A DNA stretch of 45,530 nucleotides from Eubacterium sp. GTDB lineage: Bacteria; Bacillota; Clostridia; Lachnospirales; Lachnospiraceae. Location of the stretch: assembly GCA_017539165.1 (NCBI GenBank), contig JAFYHN010000091.1, positions 1 to 45,530 on the forward strand, written 5' to 3'. This document shows positions 30,623 through 45,530 of this stretch, piece after piece. Each line of letters opens with the position of its first letter. Positions within the stretch are counted from its first letter, which is position 1. The translations under genes were made by a program, and so were the position numbers. The notes under the pieces were generated by a model. That model saw nothing but the letters and a program-made list of their open reading frames with translations. It did not search any database and was not told the origin of the DNA.

Positions 30623-31273
30623 TTATGCGACGTTTATAAAACGCATGTTTTCTTCTTCTCTTATAGCACTGTATCTAGTGACTGTGAGGATTTTTGATTT
30701 TGAATTATATTTAATTACGTAATACATTTCATCGTCACCATGAATGGTTTCGTATTTATCGTTACCAGTTTTCTTCCATTTAGACATATCCAGATTAGAA
30801 AGTACTTCTTTAAATTCTGATTTCTTGCATTCTACAACACATGACTCGAAGTCGTCATACCACTGTATTGCCCATAATCCATTATCGAATGTTTTACCAG
30901 CAATCTTGAATTCGCCATGTCCATTTTCTTTCATTGACCTAAGATCAAACAAAGGAAATTCTAATGGTACATAATATGCTACATACGCATTAAGAGCCTT
31001 GTTATCATAATAATTATCAATTATTCTCATGGCTGATTCGTTATAATCATAGAGAGCCTCAAGAATGCTTATTTCTTTATCTCCATAAAAAAGCGAATCA
31101 AAATCGGGAACCTTTTCAAATGTCGGCATCACAATATCAATTTCAGATTCCTCTTCTGATGATTTTTTAATATGATGTTTAAATTCTGGCTGGGCATTCA
31201 CCTGTGTTGATAACATGGCAGCTAATAGAGTACCTAGAATCATTGTTTTACAAAGTTTTCTCAGTTTTCTCAT
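30623..31273 (-). CDS. Secreted paralogue D
   Basis: 216 residues with a signal peptide (KLCKTMILGTLLAAMLS, cleavage near VNAQ) and an AAGGAGG ribosome site. Between signal and domain is an extra about 80-residue segment rich in Glu and Asp. The family core follows: FPLFDLRSMKENGHGEFKIAG, FDNGLWAIQW and VECKKSEFKEVLSNLDM. Function unknown. Confidence 0.72.
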   Translation of the reverse strand: MRKLRKLCKTMILGTLLAAMLSTQVNAQPEFKHHIKKSSEEESEIDIVMPTFEKVPDFDSLFYGDKEISILEALYDYNESAMRIIDNYYDNKALNAYVAYYVPLEFPLFDLRSMKENGHGEFKIAGKTFDNGLWAIQWYDDFESCVVECKKSEFKEVLSNLDMSKWKKTGNDKYETIHGDDEMYYVIKYNSKSKILTVTRYSAIREEENMRFINVA

Positions 31274-31423
31274 GATTTGTTCCTCCTTGTTTTATCATTT
31301 TTCATCTACATTTTTAGCCTAACAAAAAGATGTATATAAGATGTAACATGGTGTTAAACAAGATGTAATCATTAATTATTCAAAAAAAAGAAATATATTC
31401 AGCTAACGAGCCGAGTAAAAAAA

Positions 31424-31470
31424 TATGACAGTTAAAATCTGATTTCAACTGTCATATTTCAACTGTCATA
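31424..31470. repeat. Palindrome copy 3 with an extra right arm
   Basis: TATGACAGTTAAAATC-TG-ATTTCAACTGTCATA with one arm mismatch, immediately followed by a second direct copy of the right arm (TTTCAACTGTCATA, 31457-31470) and TTTTA. It lies about 20 bases after the stop of paralogue E. The duplicated arm suggests replication slippage. Confidence 0.75.
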
Positions 31471-31490
31471 TTTTACTGCAATATAGAATA

Positions 31491-31913
31491 TTATAATTCA
31501 CTGAAGTAAATCAAAACTTCGTATTCGGGATCGTAATCGATGGAGCCGAATCTTCCGTCGACGTCAGTATTAATCCACTGATATTCACCAATATTGTCCC
31601 AAAGTTCTCTTTTGCTATTGATAAAGGTCTCAAAATCATTTGCAGAACATTTGTAAACGTATGTGATAGACGATGGTTTTTCGTTATCATCAACAACACT
31701 GAACCCATAATTAAATTTTAAATCTTTTACTATATAACCGTCGGAAAGATATTCATCGACACATGTTTTGAGGAATTCATCTTCGTAAATGCTAGAATCC
31801 AAAACCTGTGCTGCTTCTTCCCAAAAAAGTATTTTATTTTTCTTGTTTACCTTATTTTGCTTATTCACCCTATACGATAATATAGTATTTTTAAATATTG
31901 ATGTAGAAAGCAT
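31491..31913 (-). CDS. Paralogue E lacking a signal peptide
   Basis: 140 residues. The start is well fixed by AGGAGG 7 bases upstream, yet the first 30 residues (LSTSIFKNTILSYRVNKQNK) are basic and polar, not a Sec signal. The core fits the family: YEDEFLKTCVDEYLSDGYIVKDL, NYGFSVVDD and YKCSANDFETFIN, ending EVLIYFSEL. It may be cytoplasmic or a decaying copy. It lies 25 bases after paralogue F. Confidence 0.65.
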   Translation of the reverse strand: MLSTSIFKNTILSYRVNKQNKVNKKNKILFWEEAAQVLDSSIYEDEFLKTCVDEYLSDGYIVKDLKFNYGFSVVDDNEKPSSITYVYKCSANDFETFINSKRELWDNIGEYQWINTDVDGRFGSIDYDPEYEVLIYFSEL

Positions 31914-31938
31914 AGCGTAACCTCCTAAATACCTTAAA

Positions 31939-32715
31939 CTATTTATCTTTTTCGATCTCTATTTCTTTCTCTTTTTCTTCAATTTTATATGATATTAAAT
32001 TGCATATTTCTGCAGCATCTTTATCTACATATTCAATCATTATTCCAGTGTCCGGATTATATGTAACTAAACTGTATCTCTTATTTTCTACCAATGAATA
32101 ATGATAATCATCATCTTTTGTCCAACCTTCTCCTGAAAGGTGCTCATATTTATAATTCTTAAAATCATTTTTACTGATTTTGGCGACATTTGCAGTAAAC
32201 TTATCTTCATCTTCGTTCGATATTGCAATCTGGAATCCTCTTGAAAAATACTTATTTCTGTATCCCATTTTTCCAGAATATCTGTTGAATGTTTCTGCGT
32301 ATTGAGTCAGATCAGTAATCTTATAACCCTTATCAATATACTCTTCCGCTATACGATGAAGGTCTTCATCAGAATAATAATCCGGATCATATATGTGCAA
32401 AGATTCAATAAAATCCTGGAACTCATAATCATAGTCAAATTCTTTATATATAAAATCCTCATCATCAACAAGTTCAGATGTATATGACCTTCTCAATTCT
32501 TTTGTTTCAAGAGGGGAAATGTCATTTTCAGATATAGTTCTTAGAAGATCATTTTTATAATCCAGCCCTGAAGCATCTATTTCTGTTGTATCTTCACAAT
32601 TTTCTGTACTATTTTCTTCCTCCGCATGTACTATAGAACTTCCTGGGTTAAACATCATTAAAGTACTAAATATCGAAATTCCAAAACAAAGACCAATTCT
32701 TTTTATACGATTCAT
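31939..32715 (-). CDS. Secreted paralogue F (divergent, longest)
   Basis: 258 residues with a signal peptide (KRIGLCFGISIFSTLMMF, cleavage near VHAE) and a TGGAGGAG ribosome site. An acidic linker (about 30-115) precedes a divergent family core: YYSDEDLHRIAEEYIDKGYKITDL, YFSRGFQIAI and AKISKNDFKNY, where the usual Cys pair is lost. The C-terminus is a charged EEKEKEIEIEKDK tail. It starts 15 bases after the response regulator stop, so the two are co-transcribed. Confidence 0.7.
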   Translation of the reverse strand: MNRIKRIGLCFGISIFSTLMMFNPGSSIVHAEEENSTENCEDTTEIDASGLDYKNDLLRTISENDISPLETKELRRSYTSELVDDEDFIYKEFDYDYEFQDFIESLHIYDPDYYSDEDLHRIAEEYIDKGYKITDLTQYAETFNRYSGKMGYRNKYFSRGFQIAISNEDEDKFTANVAKISKNDFKNYKYEHLSGEGWTKDDDYHYSLVENKRYSLVTYNPDTGIMIEYVDKDAAEICNLISYKIEEKEKEIEIEKDK

Positions 32716-32730
32716 ATTCTGTCTCCTCCA

Positions 32731-33390
32731 TTAAGTATTAATCTTCAATCTGTATCCTATTCTAAATATGGTCTGAATTACGTCTTCAAAACCAAGCTTT
32801 TTTCGTAAACTTTTCACGTGATTATCAAGAGTACGTGAATCCTCATTAAACTTATCATGCCAAACATTTTCGAATAAAAAATTCCTCTCGAGCGCAACGT
32901 TTTTGTTATATACAAAAAGCCGAAGCAGCTCAAATTCCTTCATAGTAAGTAGAACTTCTTTGCCTTTTCTTGTTACTTTGCGAGAATTGAAATTCACCTT
33001 CACTTCATCATGCTCAAATGTCTCTTCTTTAATATTTGCTCTTCTTATTACTACATCAATTCTGGCAAGCAATTCATCAAGCTGAAAAGGTTTACTTATA
33101 TAATCATCAGCACCCATTTTTAATATCCGAATTCTGGTGCTCAACTGGTCAAGTCCCGATAACACAATTATTGCCGTTTTAGTAGGCTTAATATATTCTA
33201 ATAATTCATATCCACTTACTTTCGGGAGCATAACATCAAGCAAAACAAGATCCCATCTACCGGAGTTGAAAAGTCTTTTACCTTCTTCTCCATCACTAGC
33301 AACCGTACATCCATATCCTGAACATTCCAAAGCTTTCGAAATAATCTTAGTTATTGACTTATCATCATCAATTACCAATATATTAAGCAT
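32731..33390 (-). CDS. OmpR-family response regulator, orphan
   Basis: 219 residues. The receiver domain (1 to about 118) has the acidic pocket D8-D9, phosphoacceptor Asp52 in LVLLDVMLP, Ser78 and Lys100 in DDYISKPF. The winged-helix DNA-binding domain (about 125-217) has VTRKGKEVLLTMKEFELL, EDSRTLDNHVKSLRKKLG and the usual IGYRL end. No histidine kinase is adjacent on either side within the window. It heads the - strand unit containing the secreted paralogues and may control them (inference). Confidence 0.92.
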   Translation of the reverse strand: MLNILVIDDDKSITKIISKALECSGYGCTVASDGEEGKRLFNSGRWDLVLLDVMLPKVSGYELLEYIKPTKTAIIVLSGLDQLSTRIRILKMGADDYISKPFQLDELLARIDVVIRRANIKEETFEHDEVKVNFNSRKVTRKGKEVLLTMKEFELLRLFVYNKNVALERNFLFENVWHDKFNEDSRTLDNHVKSLRKKLGFEDVIQTIFRIGYRLKINT

Positions 33391-33588
33391 ATTTTCTCCT
33401 TTCCTTTTTATTGTTGCTCATTTTATTTAGATGACACTATCACTATAACAAAGAGGATAAACAGTATAGAATCATAAATCAAACATTCTAGCACCCAAGC
33501 TGTAAACTATACTTATCTAATAAGAATCAAAACGGCATAATATGAATATGATTCATTTTTATAAACTAAAAACCGGTAAATATAATAA
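33391..33588. other. Upstream region of the response regulator
   Basis: AT-rich, with no gene. It must contain the - strand promoter of the regulator unit. TATAGT (- strand, near 33440) is a possible -10, but I find no well-spaced -35. Confidence 0.4.
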
Positions 33589-33626
33589 AAGATTCTTACA
33601 AACTCGGAGGAATTTGTAAGAATCTT
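33589..33626. terminator. Hairpin at the intron insertion site
   Basis: AAGATTCTTACAAA (33589-33602) and TTTGTAAGAATCTT (33613-33626) form a 14-bp perfect stem. It has a T-rich follow-up on the - strand (TTTTATTATATTT) and lies 7 bases before the group II intron on the + strand. Group IIC introns typically insert just after such terminator-like stems. Confidence 0.7.
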
Positions 33627-33633
33627 AATCATT

Positions 33634-35519
33634 GTGCGCCCGACGGCGCACGTTTCTAACGGGTGAAAGTCCCTAATTCGCCCGACAGTGGGAAGGATAT
33701 AGCTGAACAGCAAGGGTGTCCACCGTGAGGTGGAATCTGAAGGAAGCTGAAGGCAAACCTCTGGTCTGACGGACAGAAATCACATATAGGCTATGTATGG
33801 GGATAAGGTCGCATTACAGATCAAAGTCCAATAACTGTACGGAACTGTGCATAGTAAATGTGGCAGATATATGGAGGGAAAGAAACGTGTGGTACTCGGG
33901 GAGGTCTCGTCAGCGGTGGAAACAGAGTATGAAGCCGTAGTAACAACGAATGGCGAGAAGTCAGCAGAAGCCATAGTACCGTGATGATTGCAAGCGTCAT
34001 GGAAAGGGCTGAACTTTAGGAGATGTCAGGAAATGAATGTGACCGAGGACAAATTTAAGGACAGACAACTTCATAATGAGGGTCATCTGCAAATGGTATC
34101 TGCGGAACAGAAAGAGTATGCAGAGGCGTCCGCTTGTTCAAGGATTGCTGAAAACACCAACATCATCACAGACTTGCAGACGACTGGACTACTGGAAGAG
34201 ATTTTACGGAGTGACAACCTTAACACGGCTTACAAGAAAGTAAAGTCCAACAAAGGCTCTGGCGGTGTGGACGGAATGGGCGTGGAAGAACTTCTAACGT
34301 ACTTGCGGAAGCACGGCAGAGAACTTAACCAACAGATTTTAGGTGGAAAGTATAAACCTAATCCAGTCAGACGGGTAGAGATACCCAAAGAAGAAAAGGG
34401 AAAGGTAAGAAAGTTGGGAATACCCACCGTGGTTGACCGTGTATATCAGCAGGCAATCGCACAGGTATTATCACCGATTTTCGAGAAACAGTTTTCAGAA
34501 AACAGTTTCGGCTTTCGCCCAAACAGAGGGGCACACGATGCCTTGAAGCAATGCCAAAGAAACGCAGATGAAGGCTACGTCTACGTGGTAGATATGGACT
34601 TGGAGAAGTTCTTTGACAATGTATGTCAGAGCAAACTTATCGAAGTACTGTCAAGAACCATAAAAGACGGAAGAGTGATATCTCTCATTCATAAATATAT
34701 GAATGCCGGAGTTGTTGCTAACGGCTTGTTTGAGAAGACAGAAATCGGCGTGCCACAAGGCGGACCACTAAGTCCATTGTTGAGTAACATAATGCTGAAT
34801 GAGTTAGACAAGGAGTTAGAACGTAGAGGACACAGATTTGTGCGGTATGCAGACGACCTAATGATTTTCTGTAAAAGCAGGAAAAGTGCCGAACGAACGC
34901 TCCAAAATATACTGCCTTACATAGAGAATAAGCTATTCCTCAAAGTAAACAGGGATAAAACGTGTGTGGCTCATATCAGTAAAGTCAAGTATCTCGGCTA
35001 TACGTTCTATAATCACAAAGGGCTTCGATTTCGAGTACACCCAAAGTCGGTGGAAAAGATGAAGAATAAACTGCGTGAATTGACGGACAGAAACAATGCT
35101 TGGAGCAATGAATATCGTATTTTGAAGCTACAACAGTACATCAGAGGATGGGTAAATTACTTCAAGTTGGCTGATATGAAAAGACTGATAAAAGAAACGG
35201 ACGAATGGCTACGTCACCGTATTAGGGCAATCTATTGGAGACAATGGAAGAAAGTGCGGACGAAGATAAGAAAGCTGCGAAGCCTCGACTTGCCCGAATG
35301 GGTAGTGTTTGAGATAGCCAACTGCCGCAAAGGAATATGGCGGTCTGCGTTGGTATTAAATCAGGCACTCACAAACAAAGAAATAGCCAATCTCGGATTC
35401 ATGTCCTTAACTGGCTATTATCTGCAAGTACGTGAAAACTAAGGAACCGCCGTATACCGAACGGTACGTACGGTGGTGTGAGAGGTCGGGGGACTATTCA
35501 AATCCCCCTCCTACTCGAT
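33634..35519 (+). mobile_element. Group II intron, IIC-like
   Basis: The 5' end GTGCGCCCGACGG matches the GUGYG consensus. The 3' part shows domain V (about 35443-35480: ACCGCCGTA / TACGGTGGT with the inner stem TACC-GAAC-GGTA), then a domain VI stem (GGGGGA...TCCCCC) and the end CTACTCGAT. The domain V triad reads CGC, as in class IIC introns (AGC in IIA/IIB). The encoded maturase lacks an endonuclease domain and the site is next to a terminator-like hairpin, both fitting IIC. The exact 3' end is uncertain by one base. Confidence 0.88.
34033..35442 (+). CDS. ltrA: Group II intron reverse transcriptase/maturase
   Basis: 469 residues from the ATG at 34033 (AGGAG 10 bases upstream); an in-frame TTG at 33988 is less likely. 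Reverse transcriptase blocks are intact: NSFGFRPNRGAHDAL, VVDMDLEKFFDNV, GVPQGGPLSPLLSNIMLNEL and the catalytic YADD in FVRYADDLMIF. The maturase X domain (GWVNYFKLADMKRLIKETDEWL) follows. There is no HNH endonuclease domain. The frame is uninterrupted, so the intron may still be mobile. Confidence 0.95.
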   Translation: MNVTEDKFKDRQLHNEGHLQMVSAEQKEYAEASACSRIAENTNIITDLQTTGLLEEILRSDNLNTAYKKVKSNKGSGGVDGMGVEELLTYLRKHGRELNQQILGGKYKPNPVRRVEIPKEEKGKVRKLGIPTVVDRVYQQAIAQVLSPIFEKQFSENSFGFRPNRGAHDALKQCQRNADEGYVYVVDMDLEKFFDNVCQSKLIEVLSRTIKDGRVISLIHKYMNAGVVANGLFEKTEIGVPQGGPLSPLLSNIMLNELDKELERRGHRFVRYADDLMIFCKSRKSAERTLQNILPYIENKLFLKVNRDKTCVAHISKVKYLGYTFYNHKGLRFRVHPKSVEKMKNKLRELTDRNNAWSNEYRILKLQQYIRGWVNYFKLADMKRLIKETDEWLRHRIRAIYWRQWKKVRTKIRKLRSLDLPEWVVFEIANCRKGIWRSALVLNQALTNKEIANLGFMSLTGYYLQVREN

Positions 35520-35566
35520 TGACATATTATAATGAAATTGATAAGATGGCTTTAACGCAGAGCGTT
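35519..35566 (+). promoter_or_regulatory. Predicted promoter and operator-like palindrome of the HTH gene
   Basis: TTGACA (35519-35524) and TAAGAT (35542-35547) are 17 bases apart; the first T is the last base of the intron. The palindrome AACGC-AGA-GCGTT (35554-35566) lies where transcription would start, a usual place for a repressor site. The -35 would also exist in the uninterrupted site, because the left exon ends in TT. Confidence 0.45.
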
Positions 35567-35591
35567 ATCATAATATATAGGGGATATAGGC

Positions 35592-35792
35592 ATGGGTAGA
35601 GGTAAAAAAGTAAAAGAACTGAGAGATAAAATGGGAATGAATCGTAGGGAGTTCAGTGATTATTTTGGAATTCCATACCGCACAGTACAGGATTGGGAGG
35701 CGGAGAAAAGAGAACTTCCGGAATATGTTCTAAGATTGATGTGGTATAAGGCGGCTATTGAGAAGAAGATAGATTTGAATAAAAATCAGTAA
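35592..35792 (+). CDS. Small helix-turn-helix DNA-binding protein
   Basis: 66 residues with one HTH of the Xre/transposase-repressor kind (MNRREFSDYFGIPYRTVQDWEAEKRELPEYVLRLM). It resembles antitoxin or repressor proteins. An AGGGG ribosome site precedes the ATG. It lies directly upstream of the ORF6N protein, with a 27-base palindrome beginning two bases after its stop; the pair could form an autoregulated unit. Confidence 0.78.
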   Translation: MGRGKKVKELRDKMGMNRREFSDYFGIPYRTVQDWEAEKRELPEYVLRLMWYKAAIEKKIDLNKNQ

Positions 35793-35793
35793 T

Positions 35794-35820
35794 CGTGAAG
35801 TCACAATTTGTGACTTCACG
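35794..35820. promoter_or_regulatory. 27-base palindrome between the HTH and ORF6N genes
   Basis: CGTGAAGTCACAA-T-TTGTGACTTCACG is perfect over 13 bases per arm. It starts 2 bases after the HTH stop and ends 2 bases before the ORF6N ribosome site, so it could be an operator, a terminator without T-run, or a translational hairpin. A covarying second copy lies inside the ORF6N gene at 36060-36084. Confidence 0.8.
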
Positions 35821-35834
35821 AAGAGGGGATGTGT

Positions 35835-36776
35835 ATGACAGTGAATAATGATGTTAATGAAATTGTTTCTATAAGTGTTAAACAAGAAGAAATAGTAAAT
35901 ATGATTTATACCATTAGAGGAAAACAAGTAATGCTGGATTCTGATTTGGCAATACTGTATGGATATGAGGTAAAGGCTTTAAATCAGCAAGTAAAGCGAA
36001 ATATAGGACGTTTTCCAGATGACTTTATGTTTCAATTGACAAAGGATGAGGTAGAAGTCGTGAAGTCGCAAATTGCGACTTCACCAAATAATAATTTTTT
36101 TGCTGGTCAGGAAGGCGGAAGAAGAAAACCCCCATACGCCTTTACTGAGCAGGGAATATACATGCTGGCAACAGTTTTGAAAGGTGAAGTTGCTGAACAG
36201 CAGAGTATTTTTATTATGCGTGCATTTCGAGAAATGCGACGATTTATTTCTAACAATGCATTACTATTTGAAAAGGTCAGTCATATTGAATTAAAGCAGC
36301 TTGAATATCAGAAGAATACAGATGAAAGATTTGATAAGGTTTTTCAGTATATCGAAGATCATGCTGAGTCTGAGCAGAAGGTTTTCTTCGATGGTCAGAT
36401 CTATGATGCATTCAGCTTTATTGTATCACTTATTCAGAAGGCACAGACAGAGATTGTCCTGATAGATAGCTATGTGGATGTTAAGACGCTTGATATTCTT
36501 TCAAAGAAGAGACAGGGCGTAGATGTTAAAATTATAACTTATGCAAATGCAAGACTATCCAATAATGACATTTCAAATTTTAATACTCAATATCCTAATC
36601 TTGTGGTGAAGAAATCACAGGTGTTTCATGATAGATTTATAATTCTTGATAGTTCTGTAGTTTATCATGTCGGAGCATCAGTAAAAGATGCTGGAAATAA
36701 GTGTTTTGGAATTTCTAAAATCGAAGATGGAGATATAATCCAAGGAATTATAAATAGAATTCAATCAATACTATAA
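35835..36776 (+). CDS. ORF6N-domain protein fused to a phospholipase-D-like domain
   Basis: 313 residues. The ORF6N domain (about 15-105: YTIRGKQVMLDSDLAILYG, VKRNIGRFPDDFMFQLT, YAFTEQGIYMLATVLKG) is a DNA-binding module of phage and accessory regions. A helical linker (about 110-185) and a PLD-like domain (about 190-313) follow, with FHDRFIILDSSVVYHVGASVKDAG, where the usual HxK reads HDR. The ATG at 35829 abuts the ribosome site GAGGGG; the ATG at 35835 is correctly spaced and is chosen. Function unknown; a regulator or nuclease of a mobile region is likely (inference). Confidence 0.82.
   Translation: MTVNNDVNEIVSISVKQEEIVNMIYTIRGKQVMLDSDLAILYGYEVKALNQQVKRNIGRFPDDFMFQLTKDEVEVVKSQIATSPNNNFFAGQEGGRRKPPYAFTEQGIYMLATVLKGEVAEQQSIFIMRAFREMRRFISNNALLFEKVSHIELKQLEYQKNTDERFDKVFQYIEDHAESEQKVFFDGQIYDAFSFIVSLIQKAQTEIVLIDSYVDVKTLDILSKKRQGVDVKIITYANARLSNNDISNFNTQYPNLVVKKSQVFHDRFIILDSSVVYHVGASVKDAGNKCFGISKIEDGDIIQGIINRIQSIL
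36060..36084. promoter_or_regulatory. Second, covarying palindrome inside the ORF6N gene
   Basis: GTGAAGTCGCAA-A-TTGCGACTTCAC is perfect over 12 bases per arm. Aligned with the palindrome at 35794 it differs only by one symmetrical pair (A..T to G..C) and the centre base, so palindromy has been kept despite change. It encodes the VKSQIATS stretch between the two parts of the ORF6N domain. Confidence 0.75.
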
Positions 36777-37065
36777 AATATTCGTTTGCCAGATCGCAGA
36801 AAGAAAATATGATTGTATTGGGCTGGTCGTAAGATAAAAGGTCCATCTTTGGCGGGGAACTTCCCTGACATTTTTTTTAACATCGGTGAAAATCAAGATA
36901 TTATCGAGCTTTACAAGGTTCCTTATAAATTAGTAAAATGATCTATATAATTACAGTTAAATAAATTATTACGCAATAAATGAAAAGGCTGAAATATTTG
37001 TAATTATAAATGATAGATTCATAAATGAAATTTCTGACGAAAGTATAAAGACAATAAAAATAGAT
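36777..37065 (+). pseudogene. Spacer with decayed coding remnants
   Basis: No intact gene. One frame reads NIGENQDIIELYKVPYKLVK then stop (ending near 36941). Another reads NEKAEIFVIINDRFINEISD and on to IDY then stop (about 36979-37070, ending just before the PLD gene). Both look like tails of real proteins without their bodies, consistent with deletion scars in an accessory region. I cannot identify the parent genes. Confidence 0.35.
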
Positions 37066-37082
37066 TATTGAAAGGGCTATAT

Positions 37083-37958
37083 ATGAATCATAGAGATAAA
37101 ATACTAAATGGTGCAACTACAGCATTTATAGATGCGTCATATAAATCCAGTGCAGCATATAAGCCATCCTTCATTTCAAATGACCATACAAATGGAGTGA
37201 AGGTGATGACTACAATAGAGGACGAACTTCGAAAATGTGAGTCCTTTGTTTTTAGTGTTGCATTTATTACTCTCGGCGGAATTACTCCACTTCTTCAGAC
37301 GCTGAAAGAACTTGAAGAGAAGGGAATTCCAGGTAAGATTCTTACAACAGATTACAACATGTTCACTGATCCGAAAGCTTTGGATAAGCTGGCAGAACTT
37401 TCTAATATAGAACTCCGGATGTATAGAGAAGAGGCTACGCTTCAGTCAGTTTATAAAGCAACTGATGAGGAAAGCCCGGCTGTGGATACTGAGAAGATAG
37501 GATTCCATACAAAAGGATATATCTTCAAGAACGATGGAACTTTTACCATACTTATTGGTTCTTCAAATATGACACAAAAAGCTCTTTCAGTTAATAAAGA
37601 GTGGAATACAAAAGTCATTTCAACTGCTGAAGGTGAAATGTATCAGAACGTAAGTAGCGCATTTGAAAAGTTGTGGAATGATAAGAATCATGCTCAGTCT
37701 TACTCTGACTTTATAGAAGAATATCGGACAAAGTATGAGACTATAAAGAAACAGAGAAAGATAGCTCTTGAAGCTGCTCGAAATGCTGCAGAAGAAGGTG
37801 GAGGCAGCTCTCAAGCAACAGCAAAAAAAGCCGGAGTAGTATCTCTGGAACAATATAAACTTAAGCCAAACTCCATGCAGGTGGACTTTTTTAATAACTT
37901 AAGTAAGCTGGTTGATGAAGGAGAAGATAAAGCTTTACTAATTAGTGCGACTGGGTAG
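37083..37958 (+). CDS. PLD-domain protein, helicase N-terminus cut at Walker A (copy A)
   Basis: 291 residues. The start is the ATG at 37083 with AAAGGG upstream (a TTG at 37068 is also in frame). It matches the N-terminal part of PLD-plus-DEAD helicases of the DUF3427 type: SFVFSVAFITLGGI, then GKILTTDYNMFTDPKAL, the PLD half-site FHTKGYIF (His142, Lys144) with GSSN (159-162), a basic helix, and the helicase lead-in LKPNSMQVDFFNNL, KALLISATG. It then stops exactly where ATGTGKT (Walker A) should continue. The PLD residues are intact, so it could work as a stand-alone nuclease-like protein (inference). A near copy lies at 39802. Confidence 0.8.
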   Translation: MNHRDKILNGATTAFIDASYKSSAAYKPSFISNDHTNGVKVMTTIEDELRKCESFVFSVAFITLGGITPLLQTLKELEEKGIPGKILTTDYNMFTDPKALDKLAELSNIELRMYREEATLQSVYKATDEESPAVDTEKIGFHTKGYIFKNDGTFTILIGSSNMTQKALSVNKEWNTKVISTAEGEMYQNVSSAFEKLWNDKNHAQSYSDFIEEYRTKYETIKKQRKIALEAARNAAEEGGGSSQATAKKAGVVSLEQYKLKPNSMQVDFFNNLSKLVDEGEDKALLISATG

Positions 37959-37959
37959 C

Positions 37960-38030
37960 GTGTAATATTGTAGAAGAAGTCGGGGAATCAAGTGTTTATG
38001 CGGTCTCCCAGCCTTCTGCATTTTGTAAAA
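37960..38030 (+). repeat. Conserved hairpin after truncated gene, copy A
   Basis: GTAGAAG (37970-37976) pairs with CTTCTGC (38013-38019), GGGGA with TCTCC inside it, and weaker pairing extends outward (TGTAATATT / ATTTTGTA). The same fold with different bases follows copy B at 40667-40737. A T-rich tail follows. Confidence 0.65.
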
Positions 38031-38099
38031 ATGTGTTTTCTTCATTCAATTACACCGATTTTGGCCCTAATAGATGTAAAATAACACAGGAGGATATAG

Positions 38100-38131
38100 C
38101 CAGATCTACTTCCGGAGTAGGTCTGGTTTTT
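38100..38131 (+). terminator. Intrinsic terminator, copy A
   Basis: CCAGATCTACT (38100-38110) and AGTAGGTCTGG (38116-38126) with TTTTT after. The about 25 bases before it (GTAAAATAACACAGGAGG) are nearly identical to those before the terminator at 40853, showing that the whole tail is part of the duplicated block. Confidence 0.88.
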
Positions 38132-38138
38132 GTTATAC

Positions 38139-38177
38139 GAGCTCCTTAACTGGTAAAAAAACACAATTAAGGAGCTC
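38139..38177. repeat. Inverted-repeat element, left flank of the ATPase gene
   Basis: GAGCTCCTTAA (38139-38149) and TTAAGGAGCTC (38167-38177) form an 11-bp perfect inverted repeat around an A-rich centre (CTGGTAAAAAAACACAA). A degenerate copy lies at 39699-39735 on the other side of the ATPase gene. Confidence 0.7.
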
Positions 38178-38183
38178 ATATGA

Positions 38184-38212
38184 TTGAATTGTTATCTAAT
38201 AAGATGTATAAT
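38184..38212 (+). promoter_or_regulatory. Predicted promoter of the ATPase gene
   Basis: TTGAAT (38184-38189) and TATAAT (38207-38212) are separated by exactly 17 bases, 34 bases before the start codon. Confidence 0.65.
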
Positions 38213-38245
38213 TGACTTAGATTATTATTTCACAAGAGGTGATTT

Positions 38246-39691
38246 ATGGTGAAAAATGAGGTTTTGATTGGAAGAAGTGAAGAAATAAATATATTAGAAA
38301 GGTATTGTGAGTCTCCCAAATCTGAGTTTGTTGCAGTATATGGCCGTAGAAGAGTCGGAAAGACATTTTTAGTAAGAGAAACGTTGGGGGATGTTTTCGA
38401 TTTTGAGTTTTCAGGATTATATGAAACACCAGCTACTGTTCAAAGGGAAGAGTTTCAGAAAGAGATAAACAGGCGGAGTAAAGAGACATCTAAAACTCCC
38501 GTTAATTGGTTTGATGCATTTGATAATCTTAAAGAATACCTCGTCTCACTTAAGAAGGAAAGAGTTGTTGTGTTCATTGATGAATTACCTTGGATGGATA
38601 CCCCCAAAAGTAATTTTCGTACGGCATTAGCTTCTTTTTGGAATGGATGGGGAAATAGAAAACCAATATTAAAATTGTATGTTTGTGGATCAGCAACTAC
38701 ATGGATGGTCGATAAATTAATTGGAGATAAAGGAGGGTTATATGGAAGAATAACAAGACCTATTTATCTTGCTCCTTTTTCACTCAGCGAAACTGAACAG
38801 TATTTGAATAATATAAAGAAGATGGGCTATAGCAAAAAGCAAATATTGGATGTATACATGGTTTTTGGAGGAATCCCTTATTATTTAGATATGTTTGATA
38901 GAAGTATACCACTGACGGTCAATATCGATAATTTATTATTTGCTGATAATGCGCCGCTTAGAAATGAATATGATTTTCTATTTAGATCATTATTTCAGGA
39001 TAGTGTTAACTACAGAAAAGTAATAGAACTTCTCTCAAAAAAACTTGTTGGACTTACCAGAGAGGAGATATCCAAGGGGAGCGGTTTGTCAGGAGGAGAA
39101 TTAAGCAAAATACTGTCTAATCTTTCATCCTGTGATTTTATTAGAGGATATATGGCTCCTAAAAAGAAGGAGCGTAACCAAATGTATCAGCTCACGGATA
39201 TGTTTTCGTTATTTTATTTGAGATTTGTTAAAACTGCCCCAAGAGCTAATGAAAACTATTGGACAAATCTGATGAATTCTGGGAAAAAGAATTCTTGGAC
39301 TGGATATGCTTTTGAACAAGTGTGTCTTCATCATATTAAGCAGATTAAGAAAAAACTTGGAATATCTGGAATTGCAAGCAATGTATATGCATGGAGTCAA
39401 AAAGCTTACACAGATGCTGATGGAAATGAGTGGAATGGTGGGCAGATTGATTTAATCATTGATAGAAGTGATGATGTTATGAATCTTTGCGAAATGAAGT
39501 ATTCAAATGAAGAGTATTCTATAGATAAAAAGTATGAAAAAACTATTCGTGAAAGAAACTCTATGTTTAGGCATTCTGAGAAAACAAAAAAGGGATTAAG
39601 ATGTACATTTATTACCACTTATGGGGTCAAAGATAATATGCATAAGGAGATTGTAGATAATGAAATATTGCTTGAAGATTTGTTTGAATGA
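38246..39691 (+). CDS. ATPase_2/DUF234-family protein (AAA ATPase plus nuclease-like C-terminus)
   Basis: 481 residues. The N-terminal P-loop ATPase has Walker A GRRRVGKT (33-40), Walker B VVVFIDELPW (107-116), and ends with a winged-helix region (about 280-345: LTREEISKGSGLSGGELSKIL). The C-terminal DUF234 region (about 365-481) has GGQIDLIIDRSDDVMNLCEMKYS, a PD-(D/E)xK nuclease-like arrangement (D in QIDLI, E and K in CEMKYS). Start AGAGGTGATTTATGG is convincing. Such proteins are widespread and their role is poorly known; some sit in defence or mobile regions. It has its own promoter and is flanked by two related inverted repeats. Confidence 0.85.
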   Translation: MVKNEVLIGRSEEINILERYCESPKSEFVAVYGRRRVGKTFLVRETLGDVFDFEFSGLYETPATVQREEFQKEINRRSKETSKTPVNWFDAFDNLKEYLVSLKKERVVVFIDELPWMDTPKSNFRTALASFWNGWGNRKPILKLYVCGSATTWMVDKLIGDKGGLYGRITRPIYLAPFSLSETEQYLNNIKKMGYSKKQILDVYMVFGGIPYYLDMFDRSIPLTVNIDNLLFADNAPLRNEYDFLFRSLFQDSVNYRKVIELLSKKLVGLTREEISKGSGLSGGELSKILSNLSSCDFIRGYMAPKKKERNQMYQLTDMFSLFYLRFVKTAPRANENYWTNLMNSGKKNSWTGYAFEQVCLHHIKQIKKKLGISGIASNVYAWSQKAYTDADGNEWNGGQIDLIIDRSDDVMNLCEMKYSNEEYSIDKKYEKTIRERNSMFRHSEKTKKGLRCTFITTYGVKDNMHKEIVDNEILLEDLFE

Positions 39692-39698
39692 TTATTTT

Positions 39699-39735
39699 AG
39701 CTCCCTAAGTGGAATAAAAAGATAGTTAAGGAGTT
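39699..39735. repeat. Inverted-repeat element, right flank of the ATPase gene
   Basis: AGCTCCCTAA (39699-39708) and TTAAGGAGTT (39726-39735) around GTGGAATAAAAAGATAG. Same length, order and centre as the element at 38139, with a few substitutions. It starts 8 bases after the ATPase stop. Confidence 0.65.
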
Positions 39736-39801
39736 CTGATGTGAAATTCAAAGACTGTGTTCAGAGATTACTGTCTATGTAGATGATTGAAGGGGCTATA
39801 T

Positions 39802-40665
39802 ATGAATCATAGAGATAAAATTCTAAATGGTGCAACTACTGCTTTTATAGATGCATCATATAAATCCAGTGCTGCTTATAAGCCTTCATTTGTTTCAAAC
39901 ACATATGGTACGAAGGTATTGACTACAATAGAGGATGAACTTCGTAGATGTGATTCCTTTGTTTTTAGTGTGGCATTTATTACTCTAGGTGGAATCGAAT
40001 CCTTAAAAATGGTGCTTAAAGAGCTGAGTGATAGAGGGGTTCCGGGAAAGATACTTACTACAGATTACAACATGTTTACGGACCCTAAAGCATTGGATTT
40101 TTTAGCTGGATTATCCAATATCGAACTTAGAATGTATAGAGAAGATGTTTTGATACATCCTACTTTAGAGAATATTGAGAATGAGAATCTGGTTGTTGAT
40201 ACAGAAAAGATTGGTTTTCATACAAAAGGATATATCTTCAAGAACGATGGAACTTTTACCATACTTATTGGTTCATCTAACATGACTCAGAAAGCTCTTT
40301 CAGTTAACAAGGAGTGGAATACTAAAGTGGTTTCAACAACTGAAGGAGAAATGTACCATAACGTAAGTAGCGCATTTGAAAAGCTTTGGAATGATAATAA
40401 TCATACTCAGGCTTACTCTGACTTTATAGAAGAATATCGGACAAGGTATGAGACTATAAAGAAACAGAGAAAGATAGCTCTTGAAGCTGCTAGAAATGCG
40501 GCAGAGGCAGGCAGCTCTCAAGCAACAGCAACAAAAGCCGGAGTAGTATCTCTGGAACAATATAAACTCAAACCAAACTCCATGCAGGTGGACTTTATCA
40601 ACAACTTAAGCAAGCTGGTTGATGAAGGGCAGGACAAAGCTCTTCTCATCTCGGCTACTGGGTAG
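39802..40665 (+). CDS. PLD-domain protein, helicase N-terminus cut at Walker A (copy B)
   Basis: 287 residues, start ATG 39802 with GAAGGGG upstream. Very similar to copy A throughout; differences are concentrated in a short early segment (FVSNTYGTKVL) and the region before the PLD site (EDVLIHPTLENIENENLVV). The PLD half-site FHTKGYIF and GSSN is intact. It ends in KALLISATG then TAG at exactly the same codon as copy A. Both frames are clean despite many base changes, which argues that the short form is maintained rather than freshly broken. Confidence 0.8.
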   Translation: MNHRDKILNGATTAFIDASYKSSAAYKPSFVSNTYGTKVLTTIEDELRRCDSFVFSVAFITLGGIESLKMVLKELSDRGVPGKILTTDYNMFTDPKALDFLAGLSNIELRMYREDVLIHPTLENIENENLVVDTEKIGFHTKGYIFKNDGTFTILIGSSNMTQKALSVNKEWNTKVVSTTEGEMYHNVSSAFEKLWNDNNHTQAYSDFIEEYRTRYETIKKQRKIALEAARNAAEAGSSQATATKAGVVSLEQYKLKPNSMQVDFINNLSKLVDEGQDKALLISATG

Positions 40666-40666
40666 C

Positions 40667-40742
40667 ATGTAATAATGTAGAAGAAGTCGGGAAAAGCTAG
40701 TAAATAAGCGGTCTCCCAGCCTTCCGCATTATTACATTTTTT
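40667..40742 (+). terminator. Conserved hairpin after truncated gene, copy B, with T-run
   Basis: ATGTAATAATG (40667-40677) pairs perfectly with CATTATTACAT (40727-40737); GAAG/CTTC and TCGGGA/TCTCCC continue the stem, and TTTTTTGTTTT follows. It is the counterpart of the hairpin at 37960, with different but still paired outer bases. Confidence 0.75.
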
Positions 40743-40852
40743 GTTTTATAGCTGTTTTGGCTGATAAAATACAGAGATTAATGCGTTTTTCTTCAAACAA
40801 TTACGTTTTCTGAACGGCCGGTGAAAATGTAAAATAACATAGGAGGATACAG

Positions 40853-40884
40853 CCAGATCTACGACTAGGGTAGGTCTGGTTTTT
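40853..40884 (+). terminator. Intrinsic terminator, copy B
   Basis: CCAGATCTAC (40853-40862) and GTAGGTCTGG (40870-40879) with TTTTT after. The stem matches that at 38100; the loop differs (GACTAGG against TTCCGGA), so pairing is kept while the loop drifts. Confidence 0.85.
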
Positions 40885-40938
40885 ATTTGTTTAATGTCTT
40901 TCTGAGGGGCGAAAACCGTATAAAATGTAGCTGAAATG

Positions 40939-40947
40939 TGATATAAT
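40939..40947 (+). promoter_or_regulatory. Extended -10 promoter of the mini-gene
   Basis: TG-A-TATAAT is a consensus extended -10. No -35 is obvious, which such promoters tolerate. Transcription would begin near 40954, about 33 bases before a 23-codon frame. Confidence 0.5.
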
Positions 40948-40986
40948 TTATAAAGTATTGAATATTTACAAAGGTGGTGTGTTGTT

Positions 40987-41058
40987 ATGGGGGCATATAA
41001 AAACAAAAACCGATTTGAGAATATTGATAACATGTATTTTTCGTGTGTAAAGAAATAG
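40987..41058 (+). CDS. 23-residue mini-gene with own promoter and terminator
   Basis: An ATG with a strong ribosome site (AAAGGTGG, spacing about 9) opens a 23-codon frame (MGAYKNKNRFENIDNMYFSC then VKK, stop TAG). The peptide is polar and basic, without a membrane segment, so it does not look like a type I hydrophobic toxin. An intrinsic terminator overlaps its stop. A consensus extended -10 precedes it, giving a transcript of about 140 bases. It could be a small protein, a leader peptide for the large gene downstream, or an RNA whose frame is incidental. Confidence 0.5.
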   Translation: MGAYKNKNRFENIDNMYFSCVKK

Positions 41059-41091
41059 AAGTTGACATTTTGCTGTCGACTTCTATTTTTT
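41057..41091 (+). terminator. Intrinsic terminator after the mini-gene
   Basis: AGAAGTTGACA (41057-41067) and TGTCGACTTCT (41074-41084), one G-U pair, then ATTTTTT. It overlaps the mini-gene stop codon and lies about 85 bases before the start of the large gene. Confidence 0.88.
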
Positions 41092-41175
41092 CGTATTGAA
41101 ATAATAATATTATGTTTGAAAACAGTTGATAAGAAATGGTGGATACATAGTTTTTACTACGAGTGGGGTGAGATG

Positions 41176-44100
41176 ATGAAAACTATTACTGAGAAATACA
41201 CATTAGATCAACTTGAATCTGAAATATCAGCTTGTATTTCGGATTATGAATATTGGGGAGATTTAAATCTAAGTTTTGGAGAATTTAATATCATAGGGGA
41301 TTTATTCCGAAAAAAAATACAGTCATATCCAGGGGCTGTAGATTTGGATGGGATATGCAAAAGGTATTCATGTTCTTTGACTACCTTTTGTGTCTTTTTG
41401 ATACGATATAAATATAATACTAATTTTTGGGGATTGTTATCAGATGAGCTTAATTTAGTAATAGAGCACGATTGGCAAAGTGGCATTGGAAGTTGTATTC
41501 GATCGACATTTAGAAAATATAAATTTGATTTTAGTGAAATTAAAAATGATCCTTGGGTAAATATCGCTCCAATAATATTTGAGGCTTGTTTACCACCAGA
41601 CAGTAGTTTGGATGATTTGTTCTATGTATTAAATTATGATTCATATAATGTTTTTGATCCGGAAGTAATCATAGATGAAATGATAGATATGAGGTCTTAT
41701 CTGATTAGAAAACCAATGCTTCAATTTTTGAAACGGTTTAAAAATGATAAGGCGATAGATTTTTTGCTAGAAGTTCATGATACTATGTTAGCTGTAAATC
41801 AGCATCTTTCAACTGATTCAAGATACAGAAATAGATATATAGATTGGACAGAAAAAGAAAAAGAAAAGACTAGGATTAATTCTAGAAAATCAAAAGATAG
41901 ACAGACGCGGCCATATTTAATCTTTGATAATGGAAAGAAAGGTTTATGTATTACGCTGCCAAGAATAGTTATTCATAGTGAGTGGACCGAGGAAGTAGTC
42001 TGGCATATTAAATCAGATAACGGCTTTGAAAAGACAATCTACTGCAAAGTATTTAGTGATGACAATGTTAGATTTGTGGAATCTATAAATGTCGCTGTTT
42101 CGCCAAGTGCTAACTATTCGATAGCTATGGATGATGAGGAAAACCTTGATGATGAGGGGAAACTATTTTGGGAAATAAAAGGGATTGATAATGATAGACC
42201 GAGTATTTTTAATTCATATGGTCGCTTGATAAATGCGGGATATATTCAGAGACCAAATATGGTTCTGATTTATAATGCTAAAACAAAAATAAATTATTCC
42301 GATAATTTATTTATTGAATGTCAATCATATCCGACAGATATTGATGGTTATAAGATCGAATGTGTTACTCCGACTGGAGGAGAAGCCGAGATATTTGCCC
42401 AAGGTAAAAACGCTTCTCTTGTACTAAGAACAAAACCTCATCTTGATTTATCGTTAAATGGACAAAAACTGTTCTTACTTAGCAAAGATTGCTACGATAT
42501 TGAATTATTTACTGAAATTCCATCGTTGGTAATCAGATATCAAGATGGAGAATGCATAAGTGATATAGAAATAAGAATAGATGGAGATATAACTACTTTA
42601 GATAAACTTGAAGGTGATATTGATAAAGAAATTGAATTAAAGAAATCTATAAAAAAGAGTAGTAAATCGTATGGCATTCATAATGTAAGAGTATATCAAT
42701 ATGGTAAGTTCATCAAACAAATAGAATTTGCCTATGTTCCTAAAATAAGGACTAATTATAGCTCCACGATAAAGTGGCCAGATATGGCAAACAGAAAAAA
42801 TAAAAAGTCTTATTATTTTGTTTTGCCGGATAATTGGGATATAGATTTTAATGATTGTGATATCACAAGAGATGGAGACAAAACAATAATAGAGTATTTA
42901 TCAAGTGTTGGATCATTAAATGGGACGCTTAAATATTCATATGATGAAGTGACGATGAACTTTAGGTTTATGCTTCCAGTGAATCCTTATGAAATCAAAA
43001 TGTTTGGAAAGAATGATACGACAGAAGAAAATATAACAGATAAGTTGTTTAAAACGGATCTATTTGATTTTGCAGATGAAAGTTTTTGGATAGAGTTTTC
43101 TATGTTTGAAAACTATATAAATGATACATATAGCTTAAGGCTAAAGTCAGTTAATGGGATAGAACAAGAAGAGGTGCTAAAGCTAACAAATACCGGCTCT
43201 GGAAATAAAGATTTAGGTGTTTTTAAGGACACATTAAAGGGTTGTCCGTTGCCTGCGCAAATTGTTTTGTATTCTGAAAAGAATGACGAAATTCCTTTGA
43301 TTTATATAAAGGAACATCTGCAGCTGAGTGCATATCCAGGTTATACATATGGAAAAGAAAATGATTATATTTCGTTAAGTGTAAATGAAGGCGAGACTGA
43401 TATAGATATTTCCAGATTTGGATATGATTATAAATCATGGAAGGTTGGATTTAGTGAATCAAAGTTATCAAAAAAGGGACCATATAGAGGTTACAAAATT
43501 CCTGAGAGGCTAGAAGAGGGCATTTATATTATAAATACTTCTTCTAATTCCGAAGAGGATATATTCGAGGATGAAGAAAACGAAGTTGAACTGGTTATGA
43601 ACAATAACATCGTTTATGTGCCGCATGTTAAAGAAAATAAATATAATATTAACACATCTGCTGTATGGTTAGATACCCTTATGAGGTATATATGCAAGAA
43701 CAAAATAGAGGGTGAAAAGTTTGTAGAGGGATGGCTATCTATTGGCGGTATTAAAAAATTAGAAAAATCAGAGTTCAATAAATATGACATTGAAAAATTA
43801 GTTGCATTAGCTTATTTTGTCAATTCCAAAATCAGTAATAATTCAAAGACAGTATTATGCAAAATGATGCAAAGAATAGCATTATATTTCTTGGGTAGGG
43901 GGGATAGGATTAGAATAATTGAATTGCTTGTGGAGTTGAATGTCTCTCAAGAGGTATTTGATATTTGTATTAACAATTATTATTTGCTTTTGTTTTATGG
44001 AGATAAGAAAGAGGCTAAGCAGCTGGCATCTAAAGTTGCAAAGTATTCTACAGAATTATCAATGCTTCTGCTCATGTCAGCCGAAGTAAGTATGAAGGAT

Positions 44101-44802
44101 TGCATATTAAAGGAACGTTATAGAGATTTGATTGGAAAAGAATCTTTGAGATATATGCTTGATGTTCCAAGAATTGACAATCCTCAAGTAATGGCTGAAG
44201 AACAAAAAAATTTTTTAAGAGAAACGGATTCAAGTGTAAGGATAAGGTTGGATGATGCCATTGTTGGTAGTGAAAAAGATATTCAATCGATGATCAAGTT
44301 AGATAAATGGAATAATCCAAAACTTGACATCAGCCTAAAGCCAGAGGATGGACTTTACTTTGCTCATATAAAATACATTGATCAATACTTGAATTGGTAT
44401 AAGTTGAATAGTGATGAAGGCGGTGTCAAGTCAGAAGTTCGAGATAAATGTAAAAAGCTGATGGATAGTACAAAAGAGGAGATTGAGTTCGCGATAAATG
44501 TCTTAAAATCAAATGTTGGATTAAGTGATATGACGAGACAGTATTGCAAATCCATGGAATATAGGTGTAGCAAACCCAATAGCGACTATTTTTCTATCGG
44601 AAAATATCTTTATTTTCAAGGGCTTGCAGCGTTCTTATCTCGAATTCCAACAGAATACGAGAAGTATGATAAGTATAGAATGATAGGAATTAAGTATATG
44701 AGCAGTGCATATGAAATAGCACCTAGATTATCCAGAAGAGACACATTAATGGCTGGAACCTTTATATATCTAAAAACGAAGGAGAAAAAGCTATGTCAAT
44801 GA
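41176..44802 (+). CDS. Large unrecognised protein paired with a helicase (DruH-like candidate)
   Basis: About 1208 residues from the ATG at 41176 (GGGGTGAG upstream; the frame is open back to 41062 but that part has no ribosome site). No signal peptide or membrane segment. The N-terminal about 270 residues look helical, the middle (about 290-830) is beta-rich with repeated sandwich-like strands, and the C-terminal about 350 residues are helical and TPR-like (YLGRGDRIRIIELLVELNVS, AKYSTELSMLLLMSAEVS, MKYMSSAYEIAPRL-type). No catalytic motif is recognised. It overlaps the helicase gene by 10 bases, so the two products are made together. A very large protein of unknown fold followed by a big helicase is the layout of Druantia type III (DruH-DruE); this is inference from layout, not a motif match. 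Confidence 0.6.
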   Translation: MKTITEKYTLDQLESEISACISDYEYWGDLNLSFGEFNIIGDLFRKKIQSYPGAVDLDGICKRYSCSLTTFCVFLIRYKYNTNFWGLLSDELNLVIEHDWQSGIGSCIRSTFRKYKFDFSEIKNDPWVNIAPIIFEACLPPDSSLDDLFYVLNYDSYNVFDPEVIIDEMIDMRSYLIRKPMLQFLKRFKNDKAIDFLLEVHDTMLAVNQHLSTDSRYRNRYIDWTEKEKEKTRINSRKSKDRQTRPYLIFDNGKKGLCITLPRIVIHSEWTEEVVWHIKSDNGFEKTIYCKVFSDDNVRFVESINVAVSPSANYSIAMDDEENLDDEGKLFWEIKGIDNDRPSIFNSYGRLINAGYIQRPNMVLIYNAKTKINYSDNLFIECQSYPTDIDGYKIECVTPTGGEAEIFAQGKNASLVLRTKPHLDLSLNGQKLFLLSKDCYDIELFTEIPSLVIRYQDGECISDIEIRIDGDITTLDKLEGDIDKEIELKKSIKKSSKSYGIHNVRVYQYGKFIKQIEFAYVPKIRTNYSSTIKWPDMANRKNKKSYYFVLPDNWDIDFNDCDITRDGDKTIIEYLSSVGSLNGTLKYSYDEVTMNFRFMLPVNPYEIKMFGKNDTTEENITDKLFKTDLFDFADESFWIEFSMFENYINDTYSLRLKSVNGIEQEEVLKLTNTGSGNKDLGVFKDTLKGCPLPAQIVLYSEKNDEIPLIYIKEHLQLSAYPGYTYGKENDYISLSVNEGETDIDISRFGYDYKSWKVGFSESKLSKKGPYRGYKIPERLEEGIYIINTSSNSEEDIFEDEENEVELVMNNNIVYVPHVKENKYNINTSAVWLDTLMRYICKNKIEGEKFVEGWLSIGGIKKLEKSEFNKYDIEKLVALAYFVNSKISNNSKTVLCKMMQRIALYFLGRGDRIRIIELLVELNVSQEVFDICINNYYLLLFYGDKKEAKQLASKVAKYSTELSMLLLMSAEVSMKDCILKERYRDLIGKESLRYMLDVPRIDNPQVMAEEQKNFLRETDSSVRIRLDDAIVGSEKDIQSMIKLDKWNNPKLDISLKPEDGLYFAHIKYIDQYLNWYKLNSDEGGVKSEVRDKCKKLMDSTKEEIEFAINVLKSNVGLSDMTRQYCKSMEYRCSKPNSDYFSIGKYLYFQGLAAFLSRIPTEYEKYDKYRMIGIKYMSSAYEIAPRLSRRDTLMAGTFIYLKTKEKKLCQ

Positions 44803-45530
44803 ATCCTAGAGAGACAACTGAAAAAATAAGAGAGGATTATCAGGAATATATATCATCCATTCTTACTGTAAAAGATAATGAAATAACAAAACTTGCAAGG
44901 AAAGTTGTAAAAAGTACAGGCTTTGTAAAGGGACCGTATCTCGAAACTACATTACCATTTGAACAAGGAAGTAGCCTTTCAGATTTAGCTAAAGAAGGTC
45001 TTGTTAGCCGAGAGTTTTCTTGTATGGGTAAAAATATACATTATCATGATTGGAAATTAAGAATCCACCAAGAAGATGCTCTGCGTCATATTATAAGCAA
45101 AAAGAGAAATATGATTGTTTCCACAGGTACTGGTTCCGGAAAAACAGAGTGTTATCTATACCCAGTCTTTAATGAGATTATGAGAGAAAAAGAGCGGGGA
45201 GAGCTTGATGATGGCGTTCGTGCTCTGCTTATTTTTCCGATGAATGCACTGGCTAATGACCAGCAGAAGAAGCTTCGAAAGCTTTTGAAAGAATATCCTG
45301 ATATAACATTTGGGAGATATACGGGCGAAACAGAACATAAATATGGAAAAGAAACAGCAGAGGATGCCGAAAAGAGATTACATGCAGAGTATGATAACCA
45401 TCATAGAGATGATACAGATTCTGAATTAAGAAAATCAATTCCTAATGAATATATGTGTAGGGAGTATATGGCGAAAAAACCACCACACATACTTCTTACA
45501 AATTATGCAATGCTTGAATACATGCTGTTA
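44793..45530 (+). CDS. DEAD/DEAH helicase, N-terminal part (runs off the window)
   Basis: The first 246 codons of a superfamily 2 helicase, open to the window edge. Start ATG 44793 with AAGGAGAAA 5-9 bases upstream, overlapping the preceding gene by 10 bases. Motif Q/I region: DWKLRIHQEDALRHIISKKR, Walker A STGTGSGKTECYLYP, motif Ia ALLIFPMNALANDQQKK, FGRYTGET, and ILLTNYAMLEYML, which is typical of the large helicases with a C-terminal DUF1998 domain (YprA/MrfA, DrmA, DruE, DpdJ types). The domains that would tell these apart lie beyond the window. It probably translocates on DNA as the motor of a defence or repair system. Confidence 0.88.
   Translation, partial: MSMNPRETTEKIREDYQEYISSILTVKDNEITKLARKVVKSTGFVKGPYLETTLPFEQGSSLSDLAKEGLVSREFSCMGKNIHYHDWKLRIHQEDALRHIISKKRNMIVSTGTGSGKTECYLYPVFNEIMREKERGELDDGVRALLIFPMNALANDQQKKLRKLLKEYPDITFGRYTGETEHKYGKETAEDAEKRLHAEYDNHHRDDTDSELRKSIPNEYMCREYMAKKPPHILLTNYAMLEYMLL

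Follow-up and report, generated by a model that had tools for sequence, protein, structure and literature searches.

The closest described relatives of the elements considered here are, by predicted architecture, the streptococcal integrative and conjugative elements (ICEs) that carry a triplet of serine integrases. Their three recombinase genes stand together in the orientation of the target gene, sometimes separated from it by other genes, and the elements disrupt a protein-coding gene; the part of the report consulted gives direct repeats of 2-8 bp and the targets mutT, traG and hsdM, the last belonging to a type I restriction-modification system (PMC4701971). SbCIccrDE of Staphylococcus brunensis is a serine-recombinase island that truncates its target rimL, a non-defence gene, and carries methyl-directed restriction genes together with a rimL homologue that possibly replaces the target; it has two ccr genes, and the sections of the report consulted describe no nested array (PMC10581047). 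SCCmec and the Enterococcus cassette chromosome, as portrayed in the excerpt used here, combine serine recombinases, attL and attR attachment sites and variable gene content, with attB in the 3′ region of rlmH (PMC6222049). Here we describe a locus of Eubacterium sp. (Lachnospiraceae; assembly GCA_017539165.1, contig JAFYHN010000091.1, positions 1-45,530, a stretch of 45,530 bp referred to as the window) in which two tandem gene fragments, A and B, both end inside the Walker A motif of a predicted SauUSI-like type IV restriction enzyme.

Our reading, to which we assign a probability of about 0.8, is that site-specific mobile islands would insert into SauUSI-like genes, at the GG of a glycine codon within Walker A (the codons for ATGTGKT). 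Insertion would leave a 5′ half (N-half) encoding the phospholipase-D-type (PLD) nuclease, stopped at once where the island end is of type T1 or T2, and on the far side a 3′ half (C-half) encoding the helicase and DUF3427 domains. The exchange would probably be made by a large serine recombinase, encoded in an operon of three on autonomous members, and the reaction may still be working. A complete type IV gene borne by an island would restore function and offer a fresh target. In contrast to the triplet-integrase ICEs, the target here lies in a Lachnospiraceae type IV restriction gene, at a Walker A codon, anti-phage genes are among the cargo, the left ends have terminator-like hairpins, and several scar-bearing genomes are without recombinases. 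An assignment to the staphylococcal cassette chromosome, which is defined by insertion in rlmH and a central GA, was considered and dropped: the islands are similar to it in working, but they cut an ATPase motif of a type IV gene at GG.

The open-access literature yielded no report of a type IV restriction gene targeted at Walker A (subscription journals and preprint servers lay outside the search). A survey of serine recombinases, in the part consulted, found that targets are not enriched within or near anti-phage genes (PMC10083194), which is why a repeatedly used defence-gene target is of interest. Insertion would explain a puzzling pair of truncated helicase genes, supply a proposed attB/attP pair with core GG for a Lachnospiraceae island family, and make the resident restriction gene a landing site for islands with other anti-phage genes. 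Truncated 'PLD' genes are best checked for another half before they are annotated as stand-alone effectors.

The interrupted gene

SauUSI has a phospholipase-D-type nuclease and requires ATP hydrolysis (PMC3874153, consulted in part). A full-length relative of A and B at L043:9384-12434 (G and L numbers denote genomes and loci, G000 being the source assembly of the window) likewise joins a PLD nuclease, an SF2 helicase and DUF3427 in one protein, with Pfam matches to PLDc_2, ResIII, Helicase_C and DUF3427, and matches the PADLOC profile mREase_IV (PDLC03658) with 728.8 bits over residues 11-1016, nearly its full length. Dependence on ATP is predicted for these relatives, and cleavage of methylated DNA by the subfamily is predicted from sequence alone. 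A and B are only halves of such an enzyme. As the preliminary description of this DNA had reported, both are open and in frame at the positions given in Table 1 and stop inside Walker A, where KALLISATG is followed by TAG. They are PLDc_2-positive and share 85% protein identity. The TAG of A is part of the inserted DNA and not of the gene. The helicase and DUF3427 domains are missing from both, the Pfam matches are to PLD-type families only, and A aligns to positions 14-252 of the 953-position mREase_IV profile. No further match to the N-half was found in G000 at an E-value of 0.001. We consider A and B very probably to be the 5′ halves of SauUSI-like type IV (methyl-directed) restriction genes, remaining as attL scars, and not selected short genes.

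Recurring junctions and the crossover core

Matches to the N-half occur in 25 of 61 genomes of the genus, and several of these hold a pair on a single contig. Seven genomes have truncated copies, nine in all, that stop at exactly the same residue; with shorter relics included, the break falls directly behind the GG of the Walker A glycine at 14 left junctions, spread over 11 genomes (A and B of the window, L035, L036, two each in L037 and L038, L039, L041, L042, L043, L058 and L214). Because all 14 sit on the same dinucleotide, the shared break point is not chance. Several N-half copies of relatives contain stops or are fragmentary, and that of L053 runs into the contig end. In G001, G013, G017 and G045 the truncated copies match N-halves of enzymes that are complete elsewhere, at 94-95.5% identity.

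The other half of the gene was also found alone. A search with the C-half recovered copies without an N-half at G000:C101:2396 (a separate contig of the source assembly, C101), on contig C18 of G001 and in the closed genome G004, which has a second, decayed C-half downstream; two more lone C-halves lie in L211 and L214. When the loci were scanned with a single DNA pattern and identical contexts counted once, 74 intact and seven other sites emerged; of the seven, one (L051) proved to be an intact gene in which a residue varies. This leaves six right junctions (C101, G001, two in G004 of which one is a relic, L211 and L214), at which the C-halves begin at TGKT. The C-halves of G001, G004 and L211 are 95-98% identical to intact enzymes elsewhere, and the displaced N-half and the lone C-half of G001 both closely resemble one intact gene, in G007 (94.6% and 97.7%). 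Island DNA links the two sides as well: the first 1.2 kb of C101, 1.1-2.4 kb inside the right junction, is 77% identical to the right part of the G004 island, and the DNA adjoining the tail of B matches its left part. From these two matches, the window and C101 appear to hold opposite ends of islands of a single kind.

GG is the only sequence common to all 14 left and six right junctions. The third base of the glycine codon is G in 13 of the 14 left junctions; the exception is L214, which has A and a left end of a different type. The codons at the right junctions are GGG, GGG, GGA, GGC, GGC and GGA. At a distance of 6-7 bp ahead of the GG, five right ends have TTGACA and one has TTGATT. Serine recombinases are marked by a core of two bases with no longer repeat, and the sharing of GG alone agrees with a large serine recombinase, with the caveat that GGG is common in intact genes. 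The right-end motif TAGCATGTCATAATGTAG had at first suggested a tyrosine-recombinase repeat, an impression that was dropped once only GG proved common. No target duplication was seen at the junctions, and no inverted repeat pair of at least 40 bp was found in window positions 30000-45530. A single recent insertion of a known insertion sequence (IS), an origin raised in the preliminary description, fits poorly with several different left ends at one site, and inspection of the junctions, made without an IS database, showed no sign of an IS.

The tail as the probable left end of the island

The sequence that follows each N-half falls into different left-end types (T1, T2, T3 and the L214 type), all at the same GG, and those of T1 and T2 place a stop codon immediately at the junction. 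Tail and gene have different histories. The tails of B and G015 are 93% identical over 215 bp, behind 390 bp of gene at 68%, and six T2 tails share 87-93% mutual identity while the genes before them share 65-76% in 12 of the 15 pairs and 84-91% in the other three (a deletion in the N-half of G004 opens large gaps in its pairs). Tails also stand with only about 11 bp of gene left (G010, G014) or with none (G012 and one in G001). The differing histories make it highly probable, on these comparisons, that the tail is the conserved left end of the island.

In the tail, a terminator-like hairpin near the junction is followed by a short leader, which includes a ribosome-binding-site-like AGGAGG, and then by a second terminator, a layout that probably insulates the island from the promoter of the restriction gene. 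In the window AGGAGG precedes the terminator at 38074-38134 and 40827-40887. Several T2 tails have a short frame (ATG or GTG, eight residues, stop) that overlaps the terminator stem, as in attenuators; its start codon is missing in A and B.

The preliminary description had given A and B the same hairpin, leader and terminator, with compensating changes between the hairpin arms. The tails are indeed related, sharing the direct repeats D2, D7 and D6 and the same leader and terminator (87% over 61 bp), but a hairpin common to both is not confirmed. That of B is more stable than all 200 shuffles (z -4.56), whereas A has mismatched outer arms and 47 of 200 shuffles fold as well (z -0.63), so that compensation between the arms is not borne out. 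Among eight left ends that were folded, A is the exception: the other seven are more stable than shuffles (z -2.05 to -5.16), and the hairpins start 3-19 bases from the junction.

An RNA element as the main story was set aside, as no Rfam family matched the tail in the window and seven loci. An alignment of 13 tails gave a weak consensus fold (seven pairs, -0.14 kcal/mol), in part because MAFFT misaligns different stems. A covariance model of the tail matched in 14 of the 61 genus genomes, the four weakest matches being partial or marginal, and a strict tail pattern, which fits only type T1, matched only the source genome among 397. A group II intron was likewise rejected as the source of the tail, as the intron of the window (33719-35519) is separate from it. 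A further tail, similar to that of G014, lies at a contig end (G000:C57:73644-74004, L128), and we take the stretch directly after it, from its motif, to resemble the start of a group II intron.

Cargo, recombinases and nesting

Behind the conserved ends the cargo changes between islands. It includes anti-phage genes, with PDC-S27 between A and B and a probable Druantia system after B. Eight cargo proteins from other arrays gave four PADLOC matches (PD-Lambda-2_B, AbiD, AbiEi and a weak pAgo-type match) and four without any. The G004 island spans about 36 kb between an N-half relic and a C-half and encodes three serine recombinases and a MobA/MobL relaxase, and in L211 two recombinase homologues, one of them split, stand where the contig begins, at least 5.7 kb upstream of the right junction. 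In both, the recombinase genes are upstream of the C-half and in its orientation, with further genes in between, an order also given for the triplet-integrase ICEs (PMC4701971). A triplet of recombinases is present in G004 and also in G180, two homologues are present in L211, and none was found in G000. Recombinase homologues occur in 72 of 250 genomes of the family.

On a single contig, L214 has an N-half, a left end, cargo with a complete type IV gene (971 aa), a right end and a C-half. The order N-half, cargo, full gene recurs in G001, G002, G013 and G017 and fits nested insertion. Insertions can nest because the complete gene of an island would be the next landing site, and the succession of A and B may best be read as two rounds of nested insertion.

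Two interrupting islands, that of G004 and the T3 island of G045, carry cytosine-type methyltransferases; none was recognised in L211 and L214, where part of the open reading frames (ORFs) was scanned. These genes suggest a tentative extension, which we think rather unlikely, in which the islands would act as restriction switches: methyltransferase islands would survive by inserting into the ATP-binding codon of a 5-methylcytosine-dependent enzyme, later islands would restore both a copy and a landing site, and the locus would pile up displaced halves of the enzyme and one defence system after another.

Selection on the short form

Because both frames are clean, the short form had appeared to be under selection. 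By the Nei-Gojobori method dN/dS is 0.151 for A versus B and 0.058-0.199 for A or B versus three intact relatives. It is 0.065 both for the truncated copy of G017 versus the intact gene of G001 and for that of G045 versus the intact gene of G007, 0.08-0.10 for four pairs of intact genes, and 0.106-0.154 for truncated versus full copies within G001, G013 and G017. The values are also low against intact orthologues and do not require selection on the short form. As two truncated copies set against close intact orthologues give 0.065 where intact pairs give 0.08-0.10, the low dN/dS is mostly inherited from a whole-gene past, within which some relaxation and some remaining constraint are indistinguishable.

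Weighing insertion against other explanations

A number of observations weigh against site-specific insertion as the full account. Some concern the halves. Partial N-half copies end elsewhere in L040, L041 (one), L043 (one) and L056, and incomplete C copies start elsewhere in G015, G021 and G041. A lone C-half is found in only four of the 11 left-junction genomes (G000, G001, G004 and L214, with L211 additional), G000 has one against two N-halves, and the window and C101 are separate contigs. The best intact matches are lower for the window halves (A 84%, B 78%, the C101 half 88%) and lower still for those of L214 (64% and 74%). A and B reverse the pattern of the other tails, with tails at 77% and many gaps and genes at 89%. 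The third base of the left junctions also counts for less, because intact genes have any base there and GGG is their commonest state (9 of 16 listed genes of the genus). Other points concern the enzyme. The G004 recombinases, about 11 kb away from the right junction, may be part of a nested element; no PF07508 match was found at E 1e-5 in assemblies G000, G001, G013 and G015, nor any recombinase among the ORFs of the 15 kb of L214; and one L211 recombinase has DUF4368, a domain linked to multi-targeting recombinases (PMC10083194, in the part consulted). Twenty stretches lying downstream of recombinase homologues were searched with a query from one enzyme at E 1e-4, and 19 of them showed no half of a type IV gene (five stretches were shorter than 5 kb and some were cut by contig ends). 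The only match, in G180, is a C-half cut at DEAH and not at Walker A, with no N-half in the 54 kb upstream. In this locus (L251, G180:C6, around position 2281) a serine recombinase triplet is followed by the C-half, whose junction falls in the DEAH (Walker B) codons and again has TTGACA; the break is possibly a second insertion site in the same gene.

The preliminary description had offered three possibilities, of which an element inserting at P-loop codons fits; silent cassettes are not supported in the form proposed, although A and B are mosaic, with 80-94% identity in the first 50 and last ~150 alignment columns and 58-75% in columns 50-150. The mosaicism shows homologous recombination to be at work as well, which detracts from insertion alone, and the tandem N-halves might have arisen mainly in that way, a circular or transferred unit of N-half, tail and cargo entering a resident gene mostly without a site-specific enzyme. 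The same upstream flank and cargo stand before an N-half that continues into a C-half in G013 and before a broken N-half in G028, and the missing PF07508 recombinases of four array-bearing genomes and the missing lone C-halves of 7 of 11 left-junction genomes also speak for it. We nevertheless regard it as somewhat unlikely, since homologous recombination does not produce the precise GG junctions of the T1, T2, T3 and L214-type left ends or of the right ends, and the nested arrangement of L214 needs insertion only.

The remaining possibility takes the short genes for working stand-alone PLD proteins or, on the model of McrB-S and McrB-L, for short-form modulators of the full enzyme, with the tail as a regulatory 3′ untranslated region. 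It draws on the described interference by McrB-S (PMC3874153, consulted in part), on the intact frames, conserved PLD domain and low dN/dS of A versus B, and on the stop at the junction in T1 and T2 ends and the stable hairpins of seven of the eight left ends folded. It was set aside as very unlikely: dN/dS is low against intact orthologues too, the copies are orthologous to whole genes, several carry stops or are fragmentary, tails persist with little or no gene before them, and lone C-halves have a right end of their own. A hairpin-guided element, of HUH/Y1 type (IS200/IS605-like) or of another kind, that inserted 3′ of YGG(G) and needed no large serine recombinase would account for the same-strand hairpin-forming sequence near both ends, the GG in right end and target, and the absence of a seen target duplication. 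This is highly improbable given islands of up to 36 kb and the serine recombinases that lie upstream of the right junctions in G004 and L211; the ORFs listed near the junctions included no recognised Y1 transposase, for which no dedicated search was made.

Features of the window and neighbouring genes

Table 1 Features of the window related to the two gene halves and the DNA that follows them
Feature	Position	Strand	Remarks
N-half A	37083..37958	+	Start of a SauUSI-like type IV restriction gene (first 291 aa, with the PLD nuclease domain); Walker A glycine codon broken behind its GG
Junction core GG, putative left junction (attL) A	37953..37954	+	
Putative left end (T1 type) of island in A	37955..38135	+	Decayed first hairpin, then leader; terminator ~38100-38131
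PDC-S27 cargo gene between A and B	38246..39691	+	ATPase_2-family ATPase; PADLOC candidate defence family PDC-S27
N-half B	39802..40665	+	287 aa; break identical to A
Junction core GG, putative left junction (attL) B	40660..40661	+	
Putative left end (T1 type) of island in B	40662..40888	+	Strong hairpin ~40667-40737; leader and terminator ~40853-40886
Putative island DNA just inside left end B	40891..41091	+	88.6% identity over 201 bp to the equivalent place in closed genome G004
1246-aa ORF (from TTG)	41062..44802	+	After B, before DruE
DruE (Druantia) helicase, first 246 aa	44793..45530	+	Cut by the contig end

The 1246-aa ORF had no Pfam match (41062-44799 scanned) and no PADLOC or NCBIfam match (41122-44799 scanned); from its position and size we take it to be, probably, a DruH-like partner of DruE. 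Similar imperfect palindromes (AGCTCC...GGAG) lie on both sides of the PDC-S27 gene, at 38139-38178 and 39699-39737. Just upstream of A, at 35829-36776, is a gene for an ORF6N protein whose C-terminal part gives a PLD-like match (PADLOC PDC-S05), and ORF6N-related DNA is also present upstream of the restriction gene in several relatives and within the L214 island. The group II intron of the window, which has a reverse transcriptase (Rfam and Pfam matches), lies 0.3 kb upstream of the ORF6N gene.

In many Lachnospiraceae loci the type IV restriction gene is followed directly by a NUDIX (MutT-like) gene or by a longer gene with a similar end, as at L211:10923-11312 (the gene that was scanned), L214:12925-13323 and G000:C101 ~4717-5319 (L088). 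With the DNA downstream of the C101 half as query, 44 of 48 blastn rows fall in the NUDIX stretch. As a speculation, the NUDIX protein may clear modified nucleotides released by restriction.

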